From a virus: a stretch of 22,152 nt of DNA. The position numbers were made by a program, and so were the translations under genes. The DNA is taken from positions 1 through 22,152 of the IMG/VR virus record IMGVR_UViG_3300027743_000094; one strand, given 5' to 3'. The notes beneath the pieces are model-generated. The model had not been told where the DNA came from. It was given only the letters and a program-made list of their open reading frames with translations, and made no database searches. Numbering within the stretch: position 1 is the stretch's first letter; each line of letters opens with the position of its first letter. This document shows, one piece after another, positions 6,990 through 22,152 of this stretch.

Positions 6990-7906
6990 TAGAACGCTCC
7001 TTGAGAGCCAAGCCCTCTGCTCTGTGTGTTAAGCCTTCTGCGTTCAGCGAGTGCAGTAGCAACGTCTGCATCACGTAGATTGAGTGCTCCCTGAGCAGTA
7101 CCAACCTTGCCACCGATCTTACCGAAGTCAAAGAAGTTGCGTCCACCTAACCCACCGCGTAGTGTTCCCTCCGCGTTTGCCTTCGTGCGGGTAAGGTAGT
7201 CATTCCGCTCTGCGATGTACGGATCAAGTGAGAAGGCACTGCTGCCAGTAGGAAATGACTGGTAAGCATTGAAAGCACGGTCGTCAATCTCATTAAGTCC
7301 ACCGCGCCACTGATCCACATAACCGCTACCAAGGGCACCAAGTTCGGATCTCGCGGCTGCTTCTGCTGTTCCAAGTGCAGACTGTCCTGCGTTGTATCCG
7401 ACATCATTGTAAATCCCTCTAGCTTTACCGCGATCTAGCTGTAGCTGCGCTTCTGTCTTTTGCTCACCAAGGATGTTGTTGATAGCATCATCCAGGATTG
7501 TACTAGGTAGTGCAGCTTGATCTGCACCAACACCAAACTGCTTCTCGAAGTCAGCCATAAAGGCGTTCTGCTTGGCAGCGTTCTCAGCTTTCACAACATT
7601 TGTTGCGATGTCGTCACTGTAGATCGAGTAAGGATCTTTAGCGAGTGACGCCTGACTTGTCATTTGGTCATACTGTGCAGCAATGGCTTGCATGTACAAC
7701 GAAGGGTCTAATCCCTGTGCACGGATGTTCAACTCAGCACGCTGCATCGCTGCTTGTTTAGCAAGTGCTAACTTGGCAGGATCAATAGGCTCCACTGCTG
7801 GTGGCAACGGTGGTGCAGCGGGAGTAGGTGCAGCCGCTGCTGGCTCAGGGGGATTGAACAACCCTTGTTCTAGGTAGTGCTGTACAGCATCATAGTAACT
7901 AGCCAT
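6989..7906 (-). CDS. Putative internal virion/ejection protein, 305 aa
   Basis: The N-terminus (MASYYDAVQHYLEQGLFNPP) is followed by a Pro/Ala-rich linker at about 18-40, then long Ala/Gln-rich helices. The C-terminal third is Gly-rich (GGLGGRNFFDFGKIGGKVG, about 248-266) and ends in an Arg-rich helix. No enzymatic motif is visible. Its place between a tail-fibre gene and a second helical virion protein, in the same operon as a transglycosylase, suggests an ejection protein, the first of four consecutive ones. It overlaps both neighbours by one base (TAATG at each junction). A GGGA purine block about 8 nt before the ATG is the only ribosome-site candidate. Family membership is not recognised; the call rests on position and composition. 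Confidence 0.55.
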   Translation of the reverse strand: MASYYDAVQHYLEQGLFNPPEPAAAAPTPAAPPLPPAVEPIDPAKLALAKQAAMQRAELNIRAQGLDPSLYMQAIAAQYDQMTSQASLAKDPYSIYSDDIATNVVKAENAAKQNAFMADFEKQFGVGADQAALPSTILDDAINNILGEQKTEAQLQLDRGKARGIYNDVGYNAGQSALGTAEAAARSELGALGSGYVDQWRGGLNEIDDRAFNAYQSFPTGSSAFSLDPYIAERNDYLTRTKANAEGTLRGGLGGRNFFDFGKIGGKVGTAQGALNLRDADVATALAERRRLNTQSRGLGSQGAF

Positions 7907-9372
7907 TATAGTTTCCCTATCGCTATCCAGTTGTAAGTACCAGACGGTGTAGTGGTGTTGACAATACCGATACCAGTTGTCGTAGCAGCACCGTACGAGT
8001 GAACTTCACCAGTAGAACCTGTGTCATTAGCACCGCCTGAAACCACACAGATCGGTGCAACAGTATAAGCTACAGGGAAAGAGAGAGTGCCATTAGAGTT
8101 ACCACCAAGAGATCCCGTACCACCCTGTATCATCAACGTAGTACCGTCAGGTAGCTTGAAGCGTACATTGAGAGTACCACCACCGAAGGTAGCTGATGTT
8201 AGTCCTACTGCATCAATGTAATCTGCACCAGCAAGCGCATTCGCTAGTGTGAGAAAGCCACGACCAAATGGTGTGGTTGTCAGTGCTGCAATAGCTGTTA
8301 GATCATCGTCGAGGGGCTGTGCTGATGTACCAGAAATCCCTAGATTAGCCCTAGCACCAGCAGCGTCGGTTGCACCTGTGCCACCGTTAGCAATAGCTAG
8401 TGGAGTGCCTACCCAATTCACATTGTTGATCGAGTTGAGAGTAGAGAGGGTGCCAAGACCAAGCGCAGTACGTGCATTAGGTGCAGTAGAAGCACCAGTA
8501 CCACCATTAGCAATCGGCGTAACACCAGTGAGAGACGTAGCGTTCACAGCACCAGTGATTGTACCAGTGACAGCTAGATTGCCTGGGATTGTAACCAACC
8601 CTGATGTCAGGTTGATAGTGATACCGTTAGCTGCACCACTAGAACCTAGTCGTACTACGTTAGCTGCACTCTCGAGGATTACAAAGTCATTAGCCCCGGT
8701 CATGTTCATGCCGAAGCGACCAACAGGCAGGTACATACCTACGTTGTCGAGTGTCATTGCATCAGCACCAGCACGACCAAAAGATAGAACATCTGTTGGG
8801 TGATTGTACTTGATGTAACCTGCTAAGTTATTCTCTGGATCACCAAACCCAAGCATCCCTGCCTTACTGTTAGGCGTTAGGATGTTGATGCCAGCATTGT
8901 CGCTGTGCGAGATCGTGAGATCATTAGCATTAGCGTTTGGTACAGCACCACTCGGTCCTGCAATGATGTTGATCTGTGAGAACTTCTTAAGTGGTGCAAC
9001 CGTGTTGAACACACTACCGTCAAAGATAGCCTTAACAGGCTCACCTGCAAGGAAGTCACCTGCTGCAACAGGATTGCCCAGAATGAGCAGTGGCTTTGCA
9101 CCTTGCTCATCTACATCAATCGTCACTGCACCAGTTGGTGACAAGTTAGGGATGAACACAAGAGTCAGACCATTAATTAGTGGTCTGTTAGGCTCATAAT
9201 TCAGTGTAATAGCATTAGCAGTACCACCGACAGTTGGCAGTGGCACATCACCGTACGAAGCCTGGAACATGCTGTCTAGCAGTGTCCAGTTGTACCACTC
9301 GTCGTCATGCCAGTTGTCCGAGTTGAAGTCGATCAACTTGAAGCCACTGTAGGTGTAGCCATAAATGCTCAT
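7906..9372 (-). CDS. Tail fibre protein, 488 aa
   Basis: This is a probable trimeric fibre that contacts the host surface. The N-terminal about 130 residues (NDFNSDNW-like acidic/aromatic start, then GGTANAITLNYEPNRPL and GAVTIDVDEQGAKPL) resemble the anchor modules that attach fibres to the tail hub. The middle is beta-rich (about 135-270). Two phage-tail repeats follow, IANGGTGASTAPNARTALG (287-305) and IANGGTGATDAAGARANLG (327-345), 40 residues apart. The end (SFPVAYTVAPICVVSGG, closing YNWIAIGKL) is like the gp53-like or related C-terminal receptor-binding folds, which often end in an AIG motif. It overlaps the hub gene upstream as ATGA and the first ejection gene downstream as TAATG. Its place next to the hub suggests this is the main short-tail fibre, separate from the larger fibre at 19745-21982. 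Confidence 0.85.
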   Translation of the reverse strand: MSIYGYTYSGFKLIDFNSDNWHDDEWYNWTLLDSMFQASYGDVPLPTVGGTANAITLNYEPNRPLINGLTLVFIPNLSPTGAVTIDVDEQGAKPLLILGNPVAAGDFLAGEPVKAIFDGSVFNTVAPLKKFSQINIIAGPSGAVPNANANDLTISHSDNAGINILTPNSKAGMLGFGDPENNLAGYIKYNHPTDVLSFGRAGADAMTLDNVGMYLPVGRFGMNMTGANDFVILESAANVVRLGSSGAANGITINLTSGLVTIPGNLAVTGTITGAVNATSLTGVTPIANGGTGASTAPNARTALGLGTLSTLNSINNVNWVGTPLAIANGGTGATDAAGARANLGISGTSAQPLDDDLTAIAALTTTPFGRGFLTLANALAGADYIDAVGLTSATFGGGTLNVRFKLPDGTTLMIQGGTGSLGGNSNGTLSFPVAYTVAPICVVSGGANDTGSTGEVHSYGAATTTGIGIVNTTTPSGTYNWIAIGKL

Positions 9373-11024
9373 CTGTTGATCCCCCCAAGGAGATAGTGCA
9401 GGGAGATCGACACAAAGCTTAATCCTGCGTCGCTCAATCCACTGAACCTAAGTTTCGCTATCTGGAACTTGCAAGGCCAAACGTAGTGCCACTTACGAGC
9501 AGTGTTCCGTCCACCGCCGTAAGGTTGTGGTCCTTCACCGAAGTGTCCTTGCCCACCACCACTAAACTCTGTAGTGAGTGCAGGAGCGTCTACTCCTTTG
9601 TTGGTGTAGAAGTTGTCAACGTACATTCTACAATCAAACTCACTGAGTCCTCTTGTGTCGAACGAGATATGCTTGCTTGTTTTGCTCTTTGTGCGCTGTC
9701 CGAAATCAAGCCAAGGCAGTTCCCAATCGAATGGTATGGGCTGTCCGTTGTCAGTATAGATAGGATCATCGTCACTTCCTAGCACCCAAATGTCGGCGTT
9801 CTTATCCCCAAAGAATACTCTTCCAGTGAGACTGCGTACCCCGCAGGTAAAGTTCCAGTTGCCAAACAAAGACCAGCACTCTTGTCGCAGAGCTGGCCTG
9901 TAATTGTATACAAAAGCTTTGGTTTCTGTTGTATCAGCAACTGTCTCTGCATTAGGGACGAATAGCATGAACTGTCCAGCAGACCTGTTGTACACTGAGA
10001 ATACATGGTTCTCCATCGCCTCAAATGAGAGTGGCTTTAGCGCCTTCTTAATCTCGGGGTCAACGAGGTACGACAACCTCTCTGGCTTGAAGCTAGTTGA
10101 TAGAGCAGTACGCTTGATGCTTGGTACTCCTTCAAGATCCATGAATAGACCATCATCACCGTAAGCAACGCCGCTCCTGTGGCTAATACTACCATAACCT
10201 GTCACTCCATCTTCAAAGTTGGGTGTGTGATTACCGTTCTCGTCGTACTCACCAAGGAAGCCAAACAGCAATCCTTCTGCGAACATCACTATAAGCTTAC
10301 CCCTGAAGCCAAGGAGTCCACGTATAGTTGTAGCGCCAGGTAGGATAGAGCCAACATCAAGACGAGTACCATCATTCGGCTCAGGGTCGCCATACCATGT
10401 TCCATGTGCATCTTTTGCACTAATATGAATACGATCAGGTTCTAGTGGATCGCCAGCCATAACTAGATAGCGGGAAATAGCAGTGACGTACTTGCAAATG
10501 GGGACATTGAGATTAGTTGTGGTGGCCGCGTCTTGCAGATATTCAACAGAAAACTGGTTTCCAACGTCGAGGGGTTTGTCTTGTCCGTTGCAGATGATAA
10601 GATGATCGTTGAACTCTGCGAAGGAAACGAAGTCAACAGGCGCAGTCCAGCCCGTCGGTGCACCGGGGAGCAATGCTGCTGTCGCTTGGTCCCAGATGAT
10701 CCCAACTGCTCCGTTACCCGTGACACGACAGATCTCTCCATTGCTGAATACCACTACGAGTGCTGCATTAAAGTAGTAAGCGTCCACTGCGTACGCATCT
10801 GAGGACAGCTTCTCTCTGCACTTAGCAAACAGTCTGTACCCTTGTCGTACTGCTACACTACCATCGTTGTCTGCCGCTACATTGTACGCAATGCGAGCAA
10901 ACTGATGTCCTAGGTTCATATCATCGTCTAGAACATTCCACCCACCAGCAAACTCCCGCAACGTAGTCTGTTGCAGGTTCTGCATGATCTTGAAGTTCTT
11001 GGGTATGATCTGTTCTAGTCTCAT
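9369..11024 (-). CDS. Tail hub/nozzle beta-propeller-like protein (T7 gp12 / P22 gp10 type), 551 aa
   Basis: The sequence is dominated by short beta strands with repeated aromatic and Gly-Asp turns (for example LVVVFSNGEICRV, DHLIICNGQDKPLD, KLIVMFAEGLLFGF, GRVFFGDKNADIWVL), as in tail tubular protein B of T7 and the DNA-stabilisation protein of P22-like phages. The early block LREFAGGWNVLDDDMNL followed by VRQGYRLF is the usual start of this family, placing the fold right at the N-terminus. Length suits a compact member. It would form the nozzle below the adaptor ring and hold DNA in the head. It follows the adaptor gene with one base between. The listed ATG at 11024 has only a weak ribosome site; an internal ATG at residue 14, just before the conserved block, is an alternative start. 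The end overlaps the fibre gene as ATGA. Confidence 0.8.
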   Translation of the reverse strand: MRLEQIIPKNFKIMQNLQQTTLREFAGGWNVLDDDMNLGHQFARIAYNVAADNDGSVAVRQGYRLFAKCREKLSSDAYAVDAYYFNAALVVVFSNGEICRVTGNGAVGIIWDQATAALLPGAPTGWTAPVDFVSFAEFNDHLIICNGQDKPLDVGNQFSVEYLQDAATTTNLNVPICKYVTAISRYLVMAGDPLEPDRIHISAKDAHGTWYGDPEPNDGTRLDVGSILPGATTIRGLLGFRGKLIVMFAEGLLFGFLGEYDENGNHTPNFEDGVTGYGSISHRSGVAYGDDGLFMDLEGVPSIKRTALSTSFKPERLSYLVDPEIKKALKPLSFEAMENHVFSVYNRSAGQFMLFVPNAETVADTTETKAFVYNYRPALRQECWSLFGNWNFTCGVRSLTGRVFFGDKNADIWVLGSDDDPIYTDNGQPIPFDWELPWLDFGQRTKSKTSKHISFDTRGLSEFDCRMYVDNFYTNKGVDAPALTTEFSGGGQGHFGEGPQPYGGGRNTARKWHYVWPCKFQIAKLRFSGLSDAGLSFVSISLHYLLGGINR

Positions 11025-12781: not shown

Positions 12782-13729
12782 TTAGTTGATTAGAACGCCG
12801 TGTGTGCGGTATGCTTTCCACAGCGTGAACTGCCCCTGCCACACAACTCTTGAGCCGTGTGCATCCGTATCCCAGGGCGAGGAGAGAGACTTGACCTTCA
12901 TGTTAACATGCTTGAGAATTGTGGTTCTCAAGTACTTAGAGTTGATGAAGTAAGCCTTGTTGACTGGACAATCTTCGTCATACAGAATTGGAATGTTCTG
13001 GTGACTGATGCCAGTGAAGCCGAGATCCATCATGCGCTTACCATTGCTGGTATCGCTAAGATTGAACACAACTTTCTCTCTAACGGCTGCACGATACAGA
13101 CGGTAGATGTTGCGTCCTACCAAGATGAGGTCTGGCTTCTCACTCTTCAGCGTAAGATCAAGGAGGATGTCGTCGAACGCTTCCTCGATGTTCGATGCGT
13201 TGAGAGTGCCCGCAAAGTTGTACGCAGATGTGCGCCATTGCGGTTCTGTTGCACGGTTGATACCACCGAGTACTCCGGTCGTCGGATCATCAGGGATCAG
13301 CGACTGCAAGCCAAGTGGATCAGTACCACCGCCAGCAGCGTAGAGATATTCGCTGAACTTTTCCTTGATGCTCTCTTCCAGAACGTCCATCTTAGCTTTC
13401 ATAAGCTTAAAGATAGCCGCTTCACCACGGTTCTCATCTTCTTCCTGATCGGAAATGATGACGGTGCCAGCCACACGTGACCAGTAATACCGTGCCGTAG
13501 TGAACTCGTTGGTCTGTGCCACAGGTAGCTGATCGTAGTATTCGTACGACGCTACGTTAGGGTTGCGACCAGTAGTGAGAGGATTGGTGATGTCGTAACC
13601 ACCATCCTCGTAATCGACGCGGTCGTTAGCGAAAGCCCACGCCATTAACGCATTGCTGCGTACTGACGCCATGATGAGCTTCCGCCTTGACTTAGTGAGC
13701 GTCGAGTTCAAGACAGTTGCTAATGCCAC
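12782..13729 (-). CDS. Major capsid protein, 315 aa (HK97-fold type inferred)
   Basis: This is the coat protein that builds the icosahedral shell. It is in the expected place after a scaffold gene and has a coat-like size. Residues 112-130 form a long spine-like helix (KMDVLEESIKEKFSEYLY), followed by a signature loop PLGLQSLIPDDPTTG and GGINRATEPQWR (138-166), which I know from many tailed-phage coat proteins. The block KPDLILVGRNIYRLYRAAV (198-216) is the usual helix at the P-domain, and the end (WDTDAHGSRVVWQGQFTLW) is beta, as in the A-domain. The start is a GTG at 13727-13729, with AGGAG 6 nt upstream overlapping the scaffold stop. An ATG at residue 20 has a poorer site. No protease gene or delta-domain is seen, so maturation by cleavage is not indicated. 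Confidence 0.85.
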   Translation of the reverse strand: MALATVLNSTLTKSRRKLIMASVRSNALMAWAFANDRVDYEDGGYDITNPLTTGRNPNVASYEYYDQLPVAQTNEFTTARYYWSRVAGTVIISDQEEDENRGEAAIFKLMKAKMDVLEESIKEKFSEYLYAAGGGTDPLGLQSLIPDDPTTGVLGGINRATEPQWRTSAYNFAGTLNASNIEEAFDDILLDLTLKSEKPDLILVGRNIYRLYRAAVREKVVFNLSDTSNGKRMMDLGFTGISHQNIPILYDEDCPVNKAYFINSKYLRTTILKHVNMKVKSLSSPWDTDAHGSRVVWQGQFTLWKAYRTHGVLIN

Positions 13730-14732: not shown

Positions 14733-16916
14733 TTACGAGGGTTGTAATCCACCTATTTGTGCCTCGATCTGTTGTAATGCTTCGCTAGGAGGCACACCAG
14801 CTTGCACCATTTCTTGAAGCTTCGCTTGTGCTTGTGGCGGTAGCTTCGCAATCTTCATCTTCAACTGTTGTAGCATTGCTTCATCTGTTAACGGAGGTCC
14901 AGGTTTAGGAGGTTGCCCCGGTGCACCCCCCGGTCCCCCTTCCGCACCGGGACCACCGCCAGCTTTCTGAAGTCCCTGCATCATGGTATCCATGACACGA
15001 TCCCAATCTTCATCAGCGACGGTGAACTCATCGAACGCGCGCTCAAACATCTTAAGCATGAGTATAACAACAGCAGGAGAAGCAGAAGCGAATTGCCCCA
15101 TTACCTGTCCCATTTCAATAGCCTGTTGCTTCTTCTCTCTGCTATTAGGTTTCGCGCTAGAACCGCTCTCAACCCGAACGGTAAACTCCTTTTCAAACTC
15201 CCTAGGAGAATTAACCTTCTGCCACCCTTTCGCAAGCTTTGCTCCTATAAATGGCATGACATCTTCTGCATCCCATGCAGTTGCACACAGCAAACAAATG
15301 TTCCAACTGACATCAGCAATGAAGTCCTCAATCAGATCAACTCTTTCCTCAACACGGATGTCTGTGTTCTTGTTATAGGTTTCCACTGCCTTGTTAGTGG
15401 TGTTCGTCTTAAACTGAGCACCTCGTTGGGCTTCATTGATACCAGTAATCCTGTTGATAGCTTGGAACTTGCTATCGGGGGAGAAGAACTCAGGAATGTT
15501 GAGTCCAGGAGGAATGAAACTAAAGATGTGATCTTGTAGCTTTGTGCCTTCCGGTAGGTCAATGCCTCGTGCAGTACCATCGTCACCCTTTAGTACCTTC
15601 TCTACATCATCCTGATCTATAGCGTTCTTGTTGTACAGCACATTGCGTCGTGCCCACTGCCTCCCTCGACGCACTTCATCTGCAATCTCATTGATTGCGT
15701 CTTGCTGATCCAAGTAGTACGTGACTTCACCCTTCGGTGCATGACTGTTCGTACTCTCATGGAACCACAGACGGAAGTATGGGAAGAACCTAGGGAGGCG
15801 GAGCGGATCATCCCATACCCACAACGGCCATTTCCAGCAGTTGTCAGCGTACATAAGCACGCGCCGTGTTGACTTGTCCCAGACGTACCACACCTTAGTG
15901 TACTTCGCCTTGTCGAACGCTACTGAGTTGTCGTATCCGTAGCTTTGCGCGTTGGCGTCCTCACTAGTCGAGAATAGGGAAAAGGTGTTAACCTGTTCTT
16001 CAACGTCAGAAGTGTTTCCCCTACTACCGGAGTCAAGAACGTGTGTTGGCGTGTATACCGACCGCGTTTCTTCGCCATGTCTACTCCCATATACTGCGTT
16101 GATGTAACTCGTTGGTAGATAGTCCCACTCCATCATCCACATAGCATCACTGCTATCAGGTTCAGTAGAGCTAGGATCAACTACAAGCCTGTTAGGTAAC
16201 AGGTTCTTCATAAACGGACCACTAGGATTGAGAAGTGATACCTTCTCTTCTAGTGCTGCAAGCTGTCCCTCTAATTCAAGCACCTTCTTCTTATCTGTAG
16301 CAGTCTGCAACTCTTCTGAGATCCTTTGCAGGTCTGCGATCGCAGCTTCGTTACCATCCTGCTTCTCAGTGAAACCAATCTTAACAAAGCCAGCGTTAGT
16401 CAAGAGCGTGGTAAGGACCGTCCGGCGCAGCTTCGGTTTTGCATTAAGACCGGGAAGCGATCTCTTCGCAAGTAGGGTGTTGATGAGTCTCTCAATACCC
16501 TTAGCTCGTTCAAGGTTAGCATCCACATCTGTAGTGATAGTGATGGTTGGGTTCTTTGCATACAGCATAGGAACCATGATAGAACAGTTCGAGAAAACAA
16601 TGTTCTCAGTTTCCCTCCACTCACCACTAAGTCTGTTTCCAGGCCGATTACCTGCACGTTCCTCCGCTTGATTGCGGTGAATGGTTTGATCGTTATCGTA
16701 GTACCTGATCGCTTCATTCCAAGCATCCTCAGAAGGATTGCGGTTGCGTAGTCCCTGATCTTTACGGCTGCTCCACAGTAGTCCTACTGCTTGAGACACA
16801 GGGATCTTACTGTCACCAACCATTTGGTAGATTGGTTCCTTAGTAACCTTCTTCTTACTACGTCCAACGCCAGCCTTCTCTAGCTGCTTCTCGATGGGAT
16901 CATATTCATCGGCCAT
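14733..16916 (-). CDS. Portal protein, 727 aa (large, P22-like class)
   Basis: It forms the dodecameric ring at one capsid vertex through which DNA enters and leaves. The length (727 aa) and order resemble the long portals of P22-like podoviruses: N-terminal helices with an RNRNPSEDAWNEAIRYYD start (58-74), a block NIVFSNCSIMVPMLYAKNP (105-123), a clip/wing region with a coiled-coil insert (about 187-230), NRLVVDPSSTEPDSSDAMW (242-260), an RRGRQWARRNVLYN helix (416-429), then stem helices. Residues about 652-676 are a Gly/Pro linker followed by helices (LTDEAMLQQLKMKIAKL) reaching the end, which may form a barrel-like tail. The frame extends to 16952, but I choose MADEYDP at 16916 because the extra residues would only read through terminase sequence. 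The ribosome site is weak, and the 11-bp overlap with terL suggests coupling. Confidence 0.85.
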   Translation of the reverse strand: MADEYDPIEKQLEKAGVGRSKKKVTKEPIYQMVGDSKIPVSQAVGLLWSSRKDQGLRNRNPSEDAWNEAIRYYDNDQTIHRNQAEERAGNRPGNRLSGEWRETENIVFSNCSIMVPMLYAKNPTITITTDVDANLERAKGIERLINTLLAKRSLPGLNAKPKLRRTVLTTLLTNAGFVKIGFTEKQDGNEAAIADLQRISEELQTATDKKKVLELEGQLAALEEKVSLLNPSGPFMKNLLPNRLVVDPSSTEPDSSDAMWMMEWDYLPTSYINAVYGSRHGEETRSVYTPTHVLDSGSRGNTSDVEEQVNTFSLFSTSEDANAQSYGYDNSVAFDKAKYTKVWYVWDKSTRRVLMYADNCWKWPLWVWDDPLRLPRFFPYFRLWFHESTNSHAPKGEVTYYLDQQDAINEIADEVRRGRQWARRNVLYNKNAIDQDDVEKVLKGDDGTARGIDLPEGTKLQDHIFSFIPPGLNIPEFFSPDSKFQAINRITGINEAQRGAQFKTNTTNKAVETYNKNTDIRVEERVDLIEDFIADVSWNICLLCATAWDAEDVMPFIGAKLAKGWQKVNSPREFEKEFTVRVESGSSAKPNSREKKQQAIEMGQVMGQFASASPAVVILMLKMFERAFDEFTVADEDWDRVMDTMMQGLQKAGGGPGAEGGPGGAPGQPPKPGPPLTDEAMLQQLKMKIAKLPPQAQAKLQEMVQAGVPPSEALQQIEAQIGGLQPS

Positions 16917-18435
16917 AACGGTGCTTTCTCTTATCAGGGGCCGTATTGTCATTCACTTCACACCAACGCATGTAGCTTGGCTTGACATTGAACACACGAC
17001 GGTCGAACAACGCGATACGCGGTCGGTTAGTGAAGAAGTACTTAGTCATATCCATCGCGTGATCGTTGCGATCATTGGGGACATCCTGTAACTCCCCTGC
17101 GGTGTCCTTCTTCCAGTAGTAATCAACGATCTCTCTGTCCCACCAATCAAGCTGATTGCTAACAAAGAAGCGTGGTGATCCTAACTCCCCTGTCATGGGA
17201 TGCGGGTGTCGTGCATCAACCTCTAGATAGCTTTGTACCTTTGCTAATCCCGACACGATATTGTTGTTCGCACGAGTACATGTTACTTGGTGTTCCCTAA
17301 GCAACCCGGCAACTGTAACACCGACAGTTTGAGAGCTACCTGGACCTCTTCTAAAGATAGCAGGGTCAGCGTATATAGGTCTGAAGCTTGCGTCATAGCC
17401 AATCTCTCGTGCAAGCTCCTTTCTGTGCTCTTTAATGCGGGTAGCGATTTTCTCTGGAGATAGTTCTGCTTCATAGAAACCCTCCATCAAAAAGGCATTG
17501 CCGTAGCTGTCGCTAAAGCCAATACCGTAACAAGCAGGAACCGCAAGGCCATGATCGTAAGCCTCAATGATTTCGGGTCTAAGACCTTCTCTAACTTGCC
17601 TAGCAAAGTAATCAATGATCTGATCTTTAGGAAGTAGATGGACCATCTGATTATACTGCGGATAAACCAGACCCTCAAAAGCACCCCACCCTCCCATCAG
17701 GTAGCGTTCGCGCATCTGTCCTTTGTAGGCGCTCTCTAGACCTTGAATGTAATCTGGAGGTAGGTTTTCTTTGTTCGTGTAAGTAGATCCTTCAAACAAC
17801 TCAATGATTGGTTCGTGTGTCGTAGCATCAACCAACAAGTCAGGATTGTACAGTCCAACTCTCCAGTCTAGTACTGGCTTTACAAGCTTCCTGTATACCC
17901 AATTCCTAGTGGGATTGCACAGCACAAGCATCCACCGTGGTCCTGTGCGCGGCATAGTGATGTCGTCACCGTCATAGACAGCGTTACCACGCAGACGACC
18001 AAGTAGATCGAGAAAGTCCTTCTCACTGATCTCAGGATCTTCTATCTGATCTACAACAATCCAGTCGTAAGTTGCAGACAGCAGGTTAGAGGATGATCCC
18101 TCACCACTCTTACCATGCTGCTGCACGTACCGGAAGTTGACAACCGTTCCATTCTCGAGTTCTATAAGGTTCTCAACTGACAGTGCACGACGCTTGATCC
18201 AACTGTCAGGACACCAGTTTAGAAACTCTTTACGGATAGTGTCATTGAGCTTAGGATAAGTGCTCCGTGCAATCAAACCATTAGACCCAGGATACGCTTT
18301 AGCTAACTTAAGAGCCTTGATAACAGCAGCCGTAGTCTTACCGTTAGCAAACCCTCCACCAAAGACTTGTATCTTGGCACGAGAGTTCTGAAACTGATCC
18401 TGTAGAGATCCTCTGATTTGTTTGTACTGAAGCAC
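16906..18435 (-). CDS. terL: Terminase large subunit, 509 aa
   Basis: This is the packaging motor: it uses ATP to drive DNA into the procapsid and cuts concatemers. Walker A is GGGFANGKTT (26-35), Walker B is IVVDQIED (126-133, D129, with E132 a candidate catalytic acid), and LVLCNPT (170-176) is the coupling motif. The RNase-H-like nuclease half has AYDHG (D294), IYADP (D357) and NDHAMD (D458), the expected acidic trio. Length is normal for podovirus large terminases. The start is a GTG (18433-18435), supported by AGGAG 5 nt upstream; it begins right after the stop of the 104-aa gene. It overlaps the portal start by 11 bp. No small subunit is directly adjacent; a candidate is the partial gene at the right edge. 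Confidence 0.95.
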   Translation of the reverse strand: MLQYKQIRGSLQDQFQNSRAKIQVFGGGFANGKTTAAVIKALKLAKAYPGSNGLIARSTYPKLNDTIRKEFLNWCPDSWIKRRALSVENLIELENGTVVNFRYVQQHGKSGEGSSSNLLSATYDWIVVDQIEDPEISEKDFLDLLGRLRGNAVYDGDDITMPRTGPRWMLVLCNPTRNWVYRKLVKPVLDWRVGLYNPDLLVDATTHEPIIELFEGSTYTNKENLPPDYIQGLESAYKGQMRERYLMGGWGAFEGLVYPQYNQMVHLLPKDQIIDYFARQVREGLRPEIIEAYDHGLAVPACYGIGFSDSYGNAFLMEGFYEAELSPEKIATRIKEHRKELAREIGYDASFRPIYADPAIFRRGPGSSQTVGVTVAGLLREHQVTCTRANNNIVSGLAKVQSYLEVDARHPHPMTGELGSPRFFVSNQLDWWDREIVDYYWKKDTAGELQDVPNDRNDHAMDMTKYFFTNRPRIALFDRRVFNVKPSYMRWCEVNDNTAPDKRKHRYGR

Positions 18436-18437
18436 AA

Positions 18438-18752
18438 TTACTCCTCAACTACAGTGAACGCTTGTCCAGTGGTAGCACCAAACAGTGACATTGCACCAGT
18501 CATTTCGTCTTGCTTGCGGTTGCCAGCAGCGATAAGACTACTACCGTTCAATCCCGCAGGACCAGCAACACCAAGAGGGTTAACCCAAATGTCACCAGCA
18601 CTGTTGTTAATGATAGTGATCTCTCGACGACTAGGATTGTTCGGTGCAACGGTCTGTGCAACACCGCCAGTAGTTACAGTACCATTGGTAGCAACGGGAG
18701 CCATTAGATCAACTCCGAAACCATTGCCACTGAGATCAGGATAGTGCTTCAT
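18438..18752 (-). CDS. Small beta-rich virion protein, 104 aa, function unknown
   Basis: The sequence is Gly/Ala/Asn/Thr-rich and ends in alternating strands: RREITIINNSAGDIWVNP, then a glycine loop (GVAGPAGLNGSSLIAAGNRK), then TGAMSLFGATTGQAFTVVE. It looks like a one-domain beta-sandwich of the kind found among phage accessory virion proteins; the closing GATTGQAFTV motif recurs in many phage genes of unknown function as far as I recall. There is no signal peptide, enzyme motif or membrane segment. The ATG has AGGA about 8 nt upstream and follows the 54-aa gene by 9 bp. Its stop lies 2 bp before the terL start. A cement, head-fibre or tail-associated role is possible but unproven. Confidence 0.65.
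   Translation of the reverse strand: MKHYPDLSGNGFGVDLMAPVATNGTVTTGGVAQTVAPNNPSRREITIINNSAGDIWVNPLGVAGPAGLNGSSLIAAGNRKQDEMTGAMSLFGATTGQAFTVVEE
18441..18445 (-). promoter_or_regulatory. Ribosome binding site (AGGAG) supporting the GTG start of terL
   Basis: AGGAG lies 5 nt before the GTG at 18435 and is part of the last coding codons of the 104-aa gene, linking the two translations. Confidence 0.7.
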
Positions 18753-18761
18753 CTTAGTTTC

Positions 18762-18926
18762 CTAACTGTTTGTCTCAATCTGCTTATCAATGCAGACCAT
18801 TGCTTGTTGTGCGAACGACTTGGCATCAGCAACGTATGGCTGTGTTTTGTCAGCATCAGGCAAATCACCAAAGTCATCAAAAGCTTGTAGCAATTTGTTC
18901 CTAACTTGAGCAAGTGTCTTTGGCAT
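18762..18926 (-). CDS. Mini-protein of 54 aa, unknown function
   Basis: A short complete gene, ATG at 18926 to TAG at 18762-18764, that standard length cut-offs miss. It fills the only gap between the 269-aa and 104-aa genes, is in the operon direction, and has a consensus AGGAGG with a 5-nt spacer whose bases overlap the upstream stop codon. The product starts MPKTLAQVRNKLLQAFDDFG, has an acidic/polar middle (DLPDADKTQPYVADAKSF), and a second helix (AQQAMVCIDKQIETNS) with one cysteine: two amphipathic helices joined by a loop. No family is recognised. The size and spot near terL would suit an assembly co-factor, but that is a guess. Confidence 0.75.
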   Translation of the reverse strand: MPKTLAQVRNKLLQAFDDFGDLPDADKTQPYVADAKSFAQQAMVCIDKQIETNS

Positions 18927-18931
18927 TCAAT

Positions 18932-18937
18932 CCTCCT
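18932..18937 (-). promoter_or_regulatory. Consensus ribosome binding site (AGGAGG) of the 54-aa gene
   Basis: AGGAGG stands 5 nt before the ATG at 18926 and shares bases with the TAG (18936-18938) ending the 269-aa gene. It is one of the best sites in the window and the strongest evidence that the mini-gene is real. Confidence 0.8.
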
Positions 18938-19745
18938 ATGCTAATGTCCAAGCTGAACCATTCCAGAACTTAAGTGGTTTCTCTACCCATGCAGACCCAT
19001 TCCACACCTTCACTGGCTTGTCTTGGAACGATCCACCTACATAAGCCTTAATCTTACCACCTGGAATTACCTGTTCAATGGTTCCAATCGTTATTGCTAC
19101 CCAATCTTCGATAGCACGTGTCCACACTCCAGGATTTTCATTGCCAACAGGGAATGCAGCAGCACTTCTATGAGCAGTACCAAGTGCACAACCATTCGCT
19201 GCATTGCCAGCACTAGTCTGTGACAACAGTGTATAACCAGAAGGTTGAGCAGTTGAAGCTACAGTACCACTATCACCTGCAAATGCAGTAACAAAACGAA
19301 TGTCCCTCACACCCAATGCGTTGTCAATCGCTGGAGGATCTGGATTAGTACTGTTACCTGACGCAGCAGTCACTTGTGCTAGAATGTTGTTGAGGATAAC
19401 ACGATAGCCAGCTGTGATTGGATTAACTGTCGCTTGAAAAGCATATGTATTCTCAGCAACACTGTAGTTAAGAGTAAGACCTGGGACTGTGTTAGCAGTT
19501 GTAACTGTGAAGGTGAAGAGAGCTAGAGTACAAGCAGTAGTTGAACTCCACTGCCCAAACTTCTGCCAGCCAGCAGCACTTGATGCTGCATCTAGCGTAA
19601 TAGAAGGATTACCATCAGCAGTAACCCAAATCATAATCAGTGAACCAATAGGCGCACTCGTCTGCGTAATAGTAAAAGCTTGTGTAGTTACAGCAGCACC
19701 ACCGGAGCCTCCAGCCGCGTAATGAGTGATGCCAGGAACAGCCAT
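18936..19745 (-). CDS. Adhesin-like virion protein, 269 aa, with C-terminal WNGSAW repeats
   Basis: The first about 225 residues form a Thr/Ala/Ser-rich beta domain (TTQAFTITQTSAPIGSLIMI, then SSTTACTLALFTFTVTTAN) with an ending DWVAITIGTIEQV, resembling the exposed jelly-roll-like modules of phage tail and receptor-binding proteins. A Gly hinge leads to two tandem units, KPVKVWNGSAWVE (243-255) and KPLKFWNGSAWTLA (256-269), a C-terminal pattern I know from minor tail proteins. There is no signal peptide or catalytic motif. It follows the 745-aa fibre with a TAATG overlap, so the two are probably made together and may form one adsorption structure. Receptor binding is inferred, not shown. A head-fibre role is the alternative. 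Confidence 0.65.
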   Translation of the reverse strand: MAVPGITHYAAGGSGGAAVTTQAFTITQTSAPIGSLIMIWVTADGNPSITLDAASSAAGWQKFGQWSSTTACTLALFTFTVTTANTVPGLTLNYSVAENTYAFQATVNPITAGYRVILNNILAQVTAASGNSTNPDPPAIDNALGVRDIRFVTAFAGDSGTVASTAQPSGYTLLSQTSAGNAANGCALGTAHRSAAAFPVGNENPGVWTRAIEDWVAITIGTIEQVIPGGKIKAYVGGSFQDKPVKVWNGSAWVEKPLKFWNGSAWTLA

Positions 19746-21982
19746 TAGTTAGTGTCCACCCATAGATCATTGACAGCAGGTGATCCCGGCGCGGATGTTC
19801 CTACCGCGATGTTACGTGCAGCAGCAGTGCCGAGTGCAGAAGTGTTAGCCTTCAACTGCATCTGATCGTACACTGCGTTCTTTGTTGGAGCCTGGAAATT
19901 ACCATCCCACCCTGCACCATAAGCATCATCTGGAACAACAACCCAACCAAGGAATGTTGTACCAGCAGGACCAAGGGTTGCTCGTGCACCAGCTGCATAC
20001 TCCAATACAAGTCCTGCGCCACCTAAGTCACCACCACCACGAACATGAAGCTCACCAAATCCTGTAAGGTTTTGATTGTCGATGTAAGCAACATTAGTTG
20101 AGGCACTCATTGCCATACGAATGCCGTAGCCTGTGGAGTTACGCAGGTATAACACTGAACCATCAAAAAATGATGTTCCATCGTAGCCCATAGAGAGGCT
20201 ACCCTTAAGATTTAGTCCACTCGTGTCGAGCATCATTTGTATGGCACTACTGTCAGTAGTTCTCCACATCATGTACGAACAGTTCTGAAACATCCACGGA
20301 CCAGTTGAGGCAATCTTTCCTGCGGTGGTTGTGCCGTCGCTAAAGTGCAGCCCCATTGCACCTGTCAGCACTCCGCCCGTCAGCGGCAGGTAATTCGCTA
20401 GTTGCGAAACGGTGGCGAGGGTTGAACCGCCGCTTGTGATTGCGCCTGTTGCAGCGATAGTGCCCGTGACTTTCAGCCCCGCCGCTGTAATCCTTGCGCG
20501 TTCAACTTCGGACTGTATGCTAAGAATAACAACGTGACCGTCTGTCGCATCGTAAAGACCTTTGACAGAACCAAGCTGAGTAGTAGCACCCCAAAACCGT
20601 AGGTTGCCGCCGTTATATCCAACTGAGGTTGTGCCAAGGGTTAGAAGATTTACCGCATCGGTAGCGAGCATGAATGACGCATTACCAGTACCAACAAAGT
20701 TACCAGTAGCACCTTGCACAGTCATTACTGTAGCACCACCACTGACTAGAACATCACCGTAGTCAGCATCTGGTAGACCACCACTACCACCACTACCAAT
20801 GGGAACACCATTGATCCTGTAAGTTTTACCTGCTGCAAGGTTGATACCGGAAGAGTCAATAGTAGCAATCTGTGTAGCACCAGCCTTCAAATATATATTT
20901 GGTACTCCAGTGATGGTCATACCAAGAGTGTGATTTGTTAAGATCTGTCCATCTAGAAACTCATTAAGACCAGCAGAGTCATAGGTTAGAAAGTGTTGAG
21001 CAATGTTACCATTGTTCGTTCGACAGTAAATGTGACAATCAGCAGCAACACCATACTGTCTACCAAGGAATGTAGCGGGAGAACCATAGAAAGTACCGTC
21101 TACAGTAAGGGTATTTGGAACGTGTAGTCCAGTAGGACTAAGATCCATTAACGGAGTTACACTATTGGCTCTTCTCCAATTCCAATAATCACCGTCATGG
21201 TAAAGTTGACCACCACTTGCAAACGTCCAGCCAACAACTGTTGCGCCGTTGCTATAGTTAAGAGTTGTTACGGTGGTAGAGCCAGCAACATTCAAATTGC
21301 CAGTTACTGCACCGCCAGACAACGGGAGATAGTTAGCAAGCTGACTAACAGTTGCTAGTGCTGATCCTCCTGAAGTGATCGCGCCAACGACCTCTAGGGT
21401 GCCGCCGCAAAAGACAGGCCCGCCTGTAGGATTAAGCCGAAGGTCCGCGCCCGTGTAACCTTTAATCGAGTCGATCGCTCCGCCATAAGCTCCGTCGTAA
21501 TAGTAACCCATCTTGAGACGCCAACCAGGATTGTTGCCATCTTCTCCAAGTTGGATTTGATTAACGGTAGTCGGGCTTGCAGCCATAGCTGGAGAAAAGA
21601 ACCCGGTCGCGGATACGGTGCCAGTGACAGCTTGATTGCCAGTGAATGCATTACCACCAGCGAGATTAGCTTTACCATTCAGTGCTGCAAAGAGTGCTTC
21701 TTCTAGATTACCGATGTCTATATTGATAGCATCTATATCACTAGTGTATGCAACCTCATCACCACCGGGAGTGTAACCATCACCAACACGCAAGCGTTGT
21801 GAAGTGTGTGCATACGCAAGTTCAGCCTCTGCTAGAATGAAAGCATCTAGCGGTGTGGGATCATCTGCGATTGGTACACGGTTGTCAGACGGCCACACGT
21901 TAAGAGCAACACCCTTACCGTTGCCACTTTCATCTACAACGTCGGTGACACCATCATACGGTAGTCCAGGAATATCGGTCAT
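19745..21982 (-). CDS. Large tail fibre / receptor-binding protein, 745 aa
   Basis: A beta-rich fibre. Residues about 45-80 (ILAEAELAYA, then RLRVGDGYTPGG) match the start motif of major-tropism-determinant-type N-terminal modules, where a GDG-x-TPGG turn is diagnostic. Short alpha/beta repeats and Gly-rich joints follow. A 31-residue module occurs at 200-230 and again at 513-543 (25 of 31 residues alike; core TVSQLANYLPL). Residues 694-707 (GNFQAPTKNAVYDQ) are the common near-C-terminal fibre motif, and the end (SAPGSPAVNDLWVDT) is also typical. No intramolecular chaperone domain is seen. The ATG at 21982 overlaps the upstream stop as ATGA. Base composition changes inside the gene: G+C-rich around 20340-20500 and 21370-21500 against A+T-richer flanks, suggesting mosaic assembly. 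Confidence 0.8.
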   Translation of the reverse strand: MTDIPGLPYDGVTDVVDESGNGKGVALNVWPSDNRVPIADDPTPLDAFILAEAELAYAHTSQRLRVGDGYTPGGDEVAYTSDIDAINIDIGNLEEALFAALNGKANLAGGNAFTGNQAVTGTVSATGFFSPAMAASPTTVNQIQLGEDGNNPGWRLKMGYYYDGAYGGAIDSIKGYTGADLRLNPTGGPVFCGGTLEVVGAITSGGSALATVSQLANYLPLSGGAVTGNLNVAGSTTVTTLNYSNGATVVGWTFASGGQLYHDGDYWNWRRANSVTPLMDLSPTGLHVPNTLTVDGTFYGSPATFLGRQYGVAADCHIYCRTNNGNIAQHFLTYDSAGLNEFLDGQILTNHTLGMTITGVPNIYLKAGATQIATIDSSGINLAAGKTYRINGVPIGSGGSGGLPDADYGDVLVSGGATVMTVQGATGNFVGTGNASFMLATDAVNLLTLGTTSVGYNGGNLRFWGATTQLGSVKGLYDATDGHVVILSIQSEVERARITAAGLKVTGTIAATGAITSGGSTLATVSQLANYLPLTGGVLTGAMGLHFSDGTTTAGKIASTGPWMFQNCSYMMWRTTDSSAIQMMLDTSGLNLKGSLSMGYDGTSFFDGSVLYLRNSTGYGIRMAMSASTNVAYIDNQNLTGFGELHVRGGGDLGGAGLVLEYAAGARATLGPAGTTFLGWVVVPDDAYGAGWDGNFQAPTKNAVYDQMQLKANTSALGTAAARNIAVGTSAPGSPAVNDLWVDTN
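20354..20446 (-). repeat. Fibre module copy 2 (codons 513-543)
   Basis: It encodes the same SGGS-x-LATVSQLANYLPL core as the copy at 21293-21385, but most synonymous positions differ and it is visibly richer in G+C. Confidence 0.75.
21293..21385 (-). repeat. Fibre module copy 1 (codons 200-230)
   Basis: First copy of the 31-residue module shared with 20354-20446. The two proteins match at 25 of 31 residues by my alignment, while the DNA is clearly diverged. Confidence 0.75.
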
Positions 21983-22152
21983 TGTGTGACTTCCTCTGGA
22001 GTAATGTCGATGAAGGGTACGTCCTCGTTGGCCTTCTTCTCTATGTATACAATGTTGAGTGCATCTTCCATCTTGTGTCGATGCTCTACAACATCAGCGG
22101 GGCGATGTCCTGCACGATCAAGTACATCCTTAGATGCGGTGAACGCTAGTAC
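21979..22152 (-). CDS. C-terminal fragment of an unidentified gene, possibly terminase small subunit (5' end outside window)
   Basis: On the minus strand a frame is open from the right edge for 57 codons to a TGA at 21979-21981, which overlaps the ATG of the 745-aa fibre gene (ATGA). The visible residues start VLAFTASKDVLDRAGHRPAD and end VPFIDITPEEVTQ. The helix SKDVLDRAGHRP followed by a charged helix (VVEHRHKMEDALNIVYIEKK) resembles the tails of phage small terminase subunits, where AA-x-DxLDRAG-x-KP is common. That would fit a gene at the head of a packaging operon. The overlap and lack of stops support it being a real gene; the function call is tentative. Confidence 0.55.
   Translation of the reverse strand, partial: VLAFTASKDVLDRAGHRPADVVEHRHKMEDALNIVYIEKKANEDVPFIDITPEEVTQ

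Follow-up and report, generated by a model that had tools for sequence, protein, structure and literature searches.

A probable exchange slot for receptor-binding genes between the terminase genes of an uncultured podovirus-type phage lineage

The phage systems with several receptor-binding proteins (RBPs) modelled for K1-5/SP6, G7C and KP32/KP34 combine exchangeable RBP bodies with a conserved anchor domain and short conserved N-terminal peptides (PMC6872550), and their host-specificity modules break otherwise collinear structural genes. The same features recur in a group of genes between the small (terS) and large (terL) terminase genes of IMG/VR virus record IMGVR_UViG_3300027743_000094, a linear fragment of 22,152 bp that was analyzed in full and is called the window below. 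Here, unlike in those phages, the cassette lies between terS and terL, its short peptide, D-x-SGNG, is carried by small beta proteins as well and recurs C-terminally on a protein that is not a fibre, and no T4gp10-like adapter is recognised by Pfam. Modular receptor-binding loci are a known kind of locus, and the shared tag is the part that would surprise specialists. Taking the evidence together, we think it probable that the terS–terL stretch is a standing slot for interchangeable receptor-binding genes in a podovirus-type lineage, some of whose products dock through the tag and are complemented by a second fibre beside the hub. Our literature search, which most subscription papers fell outside, returned nothing pertinent on fibres between terminase genes or on the tag motif.

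The placement of the cassette depends on the identity of the gene at the right edge, which the contig end truncates to a C-terminal fragment of 57 aa (21979-22152, minus strand), so that the full terS of this phage lies outside the record. Relatives were collected with TerL as the query and are given by our working labels. Genes of 200-213 aa in L002, L003, L004, L006, L008 and L009 end in ~55 residues that match the fragment at 95-100% identity; the fragment matches PHROG terS at E=0.008 on its own, and the full-length L002 gene matches the PHROG 2538 terminase small subunit at E=5.3e-6. By this identity the right-edge gene is the C-terminus of terS, as the initial annotation had suspected from the partial gene. 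That annotation had also allowed for a different edge gene with terS lying elsewhere in the genome; however, five near-complete relatives (G004, G005, G008, G009 and G010) each hold a single terS match. In the close relatives, two probably disordered, proline-rich proteins (about 400-554 and 173-212 aa) precede terS (L002:1020-3210 and equivalents), and the one of these that was searched had no match in PHROG.

The order terS, fibre, one to three further genes, terL is kept in the window and in L002, L003, L004, L006, L008 and L009, of which L003 and L004 are near-identical. In this phage four genes would fill the slot: fib745 for a long fibre of the tail type, adh269 for a putative adhesin of the fibre tip or a chaperone, the short, stray open reading frame (ORF) mini54, and beta104 for a small beta protein. 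The slot fibres of these relatives are 57-77% identical to fib745 over their first 90-143 residues and have diverged in the remainder. At the DNA level, homology to the window (about 77-90%) stops at fibre codon ~80-119, is absent or confined to short pieces inside the block, and restarts at terL codon 3 (L002, L003, L008, L009 and L132) or already inside beta104 (L006 and L007). The interchangeable block therefore delimited runs from about fibre codon 119 to the start of terL (18429-21626, no strand assigned) and measures ~3.2 kb in the window, with flanking proteins such as portal and capsid retaining 85-97% identity. On these alignments the block is a local hypervariable cassette in a fixed slot. 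Since its position is constant in the lineage while its content varies, we read it as a standing slot and not as a one-off insertion. The base composition of the block does not deviate from the rest of the window and hence gives no ground for a recent foreign origin. The initial annotation had placed a receptor-binding-type cassette between the terminase subunits and had proposed a comparison of gene order in relatives; the identity of terS and the fixed terS-fibre-terL order with swapped contents support that placement. Its further idea, that the block was acquired as a unit, holds as far as modular exchange goes, but the unit starts after the fibre anchor, ends at terL and belongs to a standing slot.

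Among more distant relatives, some slots hold almost nothing and others are filled. Among the matches listed from a pattern scan for the tag, described below, the terS–terL gap could be read at 65 loci, some of whose contigs may be near-duplicates: 38 gaps are 529 bp or shorter and 27 span 756-5567 bp. Its occupants include a GDSL/SGNH hydrolase in L013 (E=6e-13), a family 5 (GH5) cellulase of an uncultured phage in L016 (L016:6517-7533, E=4e-22) and LamG/CBM-type tail proteins in L017 and L070 (phrog_5939, up to E=6e-56). As judged from their domains, such functions would suit proteins that attach to surface polysaccharides or cleave them. A search of prophages and hosts yielded one clear relative, L142, in a contig labelled uncultured bacterium.

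The principal occupant in the window is fib745 (19745-21982, minus strand), a 745-aa tail-fibre-like protein whose N-terminus matches the other fibres in the slot and whose C-terminus matches phrog_22680, its only domain-level match apart from a sub-threshold Mtd_N segment considered below. Its conserved residues 1-120 (21623-21982, minus strand), where DNA collinearity ends, occur once per record in six related records. In L003, the homologous fibre has three phage tail repeats (PTR, E=5e-35) and a C-terminal S74 chaperone (E=6e-13) and matches many PHROG tail fibres. Thus two marks of a tail-fibre RBP are present, a conserved N-terminal anchor with an exchangeable distal part in fib745 itself and recognisable fibre domains with a chaperone in its homolog. 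We propose that the first ~120 residues would act as the anchor, with the shaft and nearly everything up to terL being swapped among relatives; such a swap would alter host or surface specificity and leave the packaging genes and virion core untouched.

Directly downstream lies adh269 (18936-19745, minus strand), a 269-aa putative tip adhesin or chaperone, which shares 36% identity with its positional counterpart in L002 and ends in W-N-G-S-A-W repeats. Fib745 ends in ..SPAVNDLWVDTN, and in the unrelated viral contigs L145, L146, L148, L158 and L163 a repeat protein of the adh269 type directly follows an ending of this type. Because repeat proteins directly follow such endings, and because the endings are rare (13 of 1186 ORFs in the loci examined), the sequences suggest that fib745-type and adh269-type genes form a recurring pair. 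For adh269 a role as a tip adhesin, of which T2 gp38 is an example, or as a chaperone is possible on its sequence. As a separate observation, in L145, L146, L148, L155, L158 and L163, phages otherwise unrelated, endings of the form ..SPAxxDLWVDTN or similar are followed by K-V-W-N-G-S-A-W repeat proteins. Used whole as a query, adh269 found no relatives in viral contigs; its C-terminal repeats alone did find some. The 54-aa mini54 (18762-18926, minus strand) has a relative with 45% identity (E=2e-11) in G004 (L092:2239-2454), an ORF of the early region that adjoins the primase/helicase gene, and therefore this small gene has changed place.

The feature that sets the locus apart is the tag. In the window it occurs as DESGNG at residues 17-22 of fib745 (21917-21934, minus strand) and as DLSGNG at residues 6-11 of beta104 (18720-18737, minus strand), both found by motif search. 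Across all six frames of the available sequence, G002, G004 and G005 each encode exactly three D-x-SGNG proteins: the fibre (at residue 17 or 19), a small protein just before terL (at residue 6) and, upstream of terS, a protein of 112-136 aa that ends in ..FAFPKDLSGNGGPAFTRS. The window holds the first two and the third would fall past its right edge. Among 778 complete ORFs, D.SGNG matches 34 times, always close to a terminus, whereas shuffling the proteins yields an expectation of 0.3. A position-specific matrix scores 8 or more in 35 of 106 ORFs of the terS–terL interval and in 3 of 563 elsewhere, and these three (L018, L007, L014) lie directly before terL on contigs in which terS is cut or missing. 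A degenerate DNA pattern encoding D-x-[ST]GNGGGGK/R, run against 2.9 million viral contigs, recovered at least 73 new loci. Among the matches listed, the motif is at the C-terminus of a 98-261 aa ORF in all 73, the TerL of this lineage follows downstream on the same strand in 65, and the matrix trained on the old loci finds 28 of 125 slot ORFs against 0 of 402 others.

The tag codons differ synonymously among carriers, which argues for selection on the peptide, and for this reason we dropped a DNA-level cause such as a promoter or recombination site. Homologs of the beta104 domain outside the lineage have no tag, which is therefore portable among unrelated proteins of the lineage. It seems likely from this distribution that D-x-SGNG is a shared docking peptide for the virion, by which fib745 and beta104 would attach, and which they would have in common with the C-terminus of the conserved protein encoded upstream of terS. 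More tentatively, and as a proposal we would give somewhat less than an even chance, one portable peptide, D-x-SGNG(GGG), placed at either end of a protein, may be a common plug to one virion site throughout a podovirus-type lineage that is widespread and uncultured, C-terminal on a conserved late protein and N-terminal on unrelated small beta proteins and exchangeable fibres, with the terS–terL interval serving as the docking slot for new receptor-binding or polysaccharide-degrading genes. A possible functional parallel to the upstream protein, by analogy, is T7 gp7.3. This small virion protein has its C-terminal segment at the adaptor-nozzle junction (PMC11784390); its glycine-rich C-terminus (..SSGGGINI) is the part resolved in the tail channel, and no sequence homology to the upstream protein was found. 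The conserved small late protein ending ..YPxDxSGNGGGGK upstream of terS (L002:457-912, L066:2053-2544 and equivalents) occurs in more than 70 viral contigs, and the two members searched matched no Pfam or PHROG family above threshold.

A branched tail-fibre system of the K1-5/G7C/KP32 type is a competing explanation: a docking domain would sit on one fibre or adapter, and the other proteins would attach to it by short N-terminal peptides. A short conserved N-terminal peptide on several proteins is what characterises the RBPs of those phages (PMC6872550), and in this lineage one is common to fib745, beta104 and further small slot proteins, all of them putative virion proteins. However, Pfam scans of fib745, fib488 and hub551 report no T4gp10-like domain (the published work used HHpred), and the tag also sits at the C-terminus of a protein that is not a fibre. 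We therefore regard such a system as a doubtful, though the strongest, competitor to a tag that docks these proteins to the virion itself.

The tag might instead be a mere structural turn of beta-rich phage proteins with no docking role, and in the 87-99 aa proteins that precede terL its letters do lie inside the chain, at residues 20-29. Against this stand its position at residues 5-8 of many small proteins, its absence from homologous beta domains of other phages, and its place at the extreme C-terminus of the upstream protein in all 73 of the new contigs listed, which were found by the pattern alone. We consider a simple turn unlikely.

Similarly improbable, to about the same degree, is a block coding for fibres and decoration proteins of the head (capsid), with the tag as a capsid-binding peptide. 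This possibility rests on beta104 (18438-18752, minus strand), a 104-aa all-beta protein with a flexible tagged N-terminus. Its AF2 model (pLDDT 75) is that of a small, entirely beta domain whose N-terminus is mostly of low confidence (below 50 at residues 1-5 and 11-14), and some decoration proteins are likewise small beta domains with a flexible arm at the N-terminus. Homologs 64-70% identical occur at the same place in L108 (the contig of L006) and L109 (that of L007), with more distant ones elsewhere. One relative of the domain is gp13 of Sinorhizobium phage phiM5 (MF074189), whose gene comes straight after that of the major capsid protein. Its annotation lists it as found in the particle proteome, and the same goes for the SGNH hydrolase next to it. 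This pair, phiM5 genes 13 and 14, resembles the L013 slot, with its small tagged protein and SGNH hydrolase, but follows the major capsid gene and has a beta protein without the tag. A fold search with beta104 gave weak PDB matches only (PM2 spike P1, spore appendages, cupins) and otherwise unnamed phage proteins, and sequence searches of solved structures with beta104, fib745, adh269 and terS found nothing significant. What speaks against the head is the L003 fibre, with its tail repeats, S74 chaperone and PHROG tail-fibre matches, together with the further slot occupants that match PHROG tail proteins.

Least plausible by a wide margin is a tropism cassette of the Bordetella phage Mtd type, diversified by reverse transcriptase as part of a diversity-generating retroelement: the Mtd likeness that the initial annotation had noticed in the fibre comes down to a sub-threshold, ~25-residue N-terminal segment (residues 48-71; Pfam Mtd_N E=0.005, 17.2 bits vs a cut-off of 26.3), RVT_1 (reverse transcriptase) is absent from all 18 related records, near-complete ones included, the window itself being a fragment, and variation takes the form of block exchange with new sequence instead of point changes in a short variable repeat, with no sign of mutagenic retrohoming, so this reading was dropped.

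Several points weigh against a standing slot with tag-mediated docking. The TerL of the closest isolate is only ~26% identical, and in our isolate search no virion of the lineage had been isolated or imaged. Many tagged proteins are homologous to one another, so the motif counts given above are not independent, and the large slot proteins of distant relatives mostly have no tag, which therefore cannot be the sole anchor. For adh269, the AF2 model (pLDDT 36) is unusable and the W-repeat C-terminus is of a widespread type.

The slot nevertheless gives host-range exchange a fixed genomic address with sharp borders in a phage group that is abundant and has no cultured members, and receptor-binding genes could be retrieved from metagenomes by position alone. 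The tag suggests how unrelated proteins are recruited to the virion, and it opens the attachment mechanism to tests on small recombinant proteins, for which an isolate is not needed.

The late genes of the window all lie on the minus strand, where every ORF named in the initial annotation was found again at its coordinates. In reading direction they run from the terS C-terminus through fib745, adh269, mini54, beta104, terL, portal, a scaffold-like gene and the major capsid gene to three small genes, hub551, fib488, p305, p323, p476 and p1381. The terL (16906-18435; Pfam Terminase_6N and Terminase_3, PHROG 2 terL; 89-95% identity in close relatives), portal (14733-16952), major capsid (12782-13729) and fibre assignments come from PHROG and Pfam. 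Beside the hub gene hub551 (9369-11024) lies fib488 (7906-9372; Gp53-like_C E=5e-8), conserved at 58-68% identity over its length in relatives and separate from the cassette, which bears out the earlier reading of a second fibre at the usual place. It may be a second, slower-changing adsorption element, giving each virion two adsorption devices.

Elsewhere in the window, p476 carries an SLT transglycosylase domain. In L018, L022, L047 and L052, a charged, non-fibre-like ORF of 417-729 aa sits instead between terL and portal. A DUF3987-type primase/helicase gene is represented by its C-terminus at positions 1-456 of the window (plus strand); it is convergent with the late genes and has a full-length relative in G005. 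The same genome (L096:12781-15285) encodes a DNA polymerase I-type protein in which an N-terminal uracil-DNA glycosylase domain is fused to exonuclease and polymerase domains.

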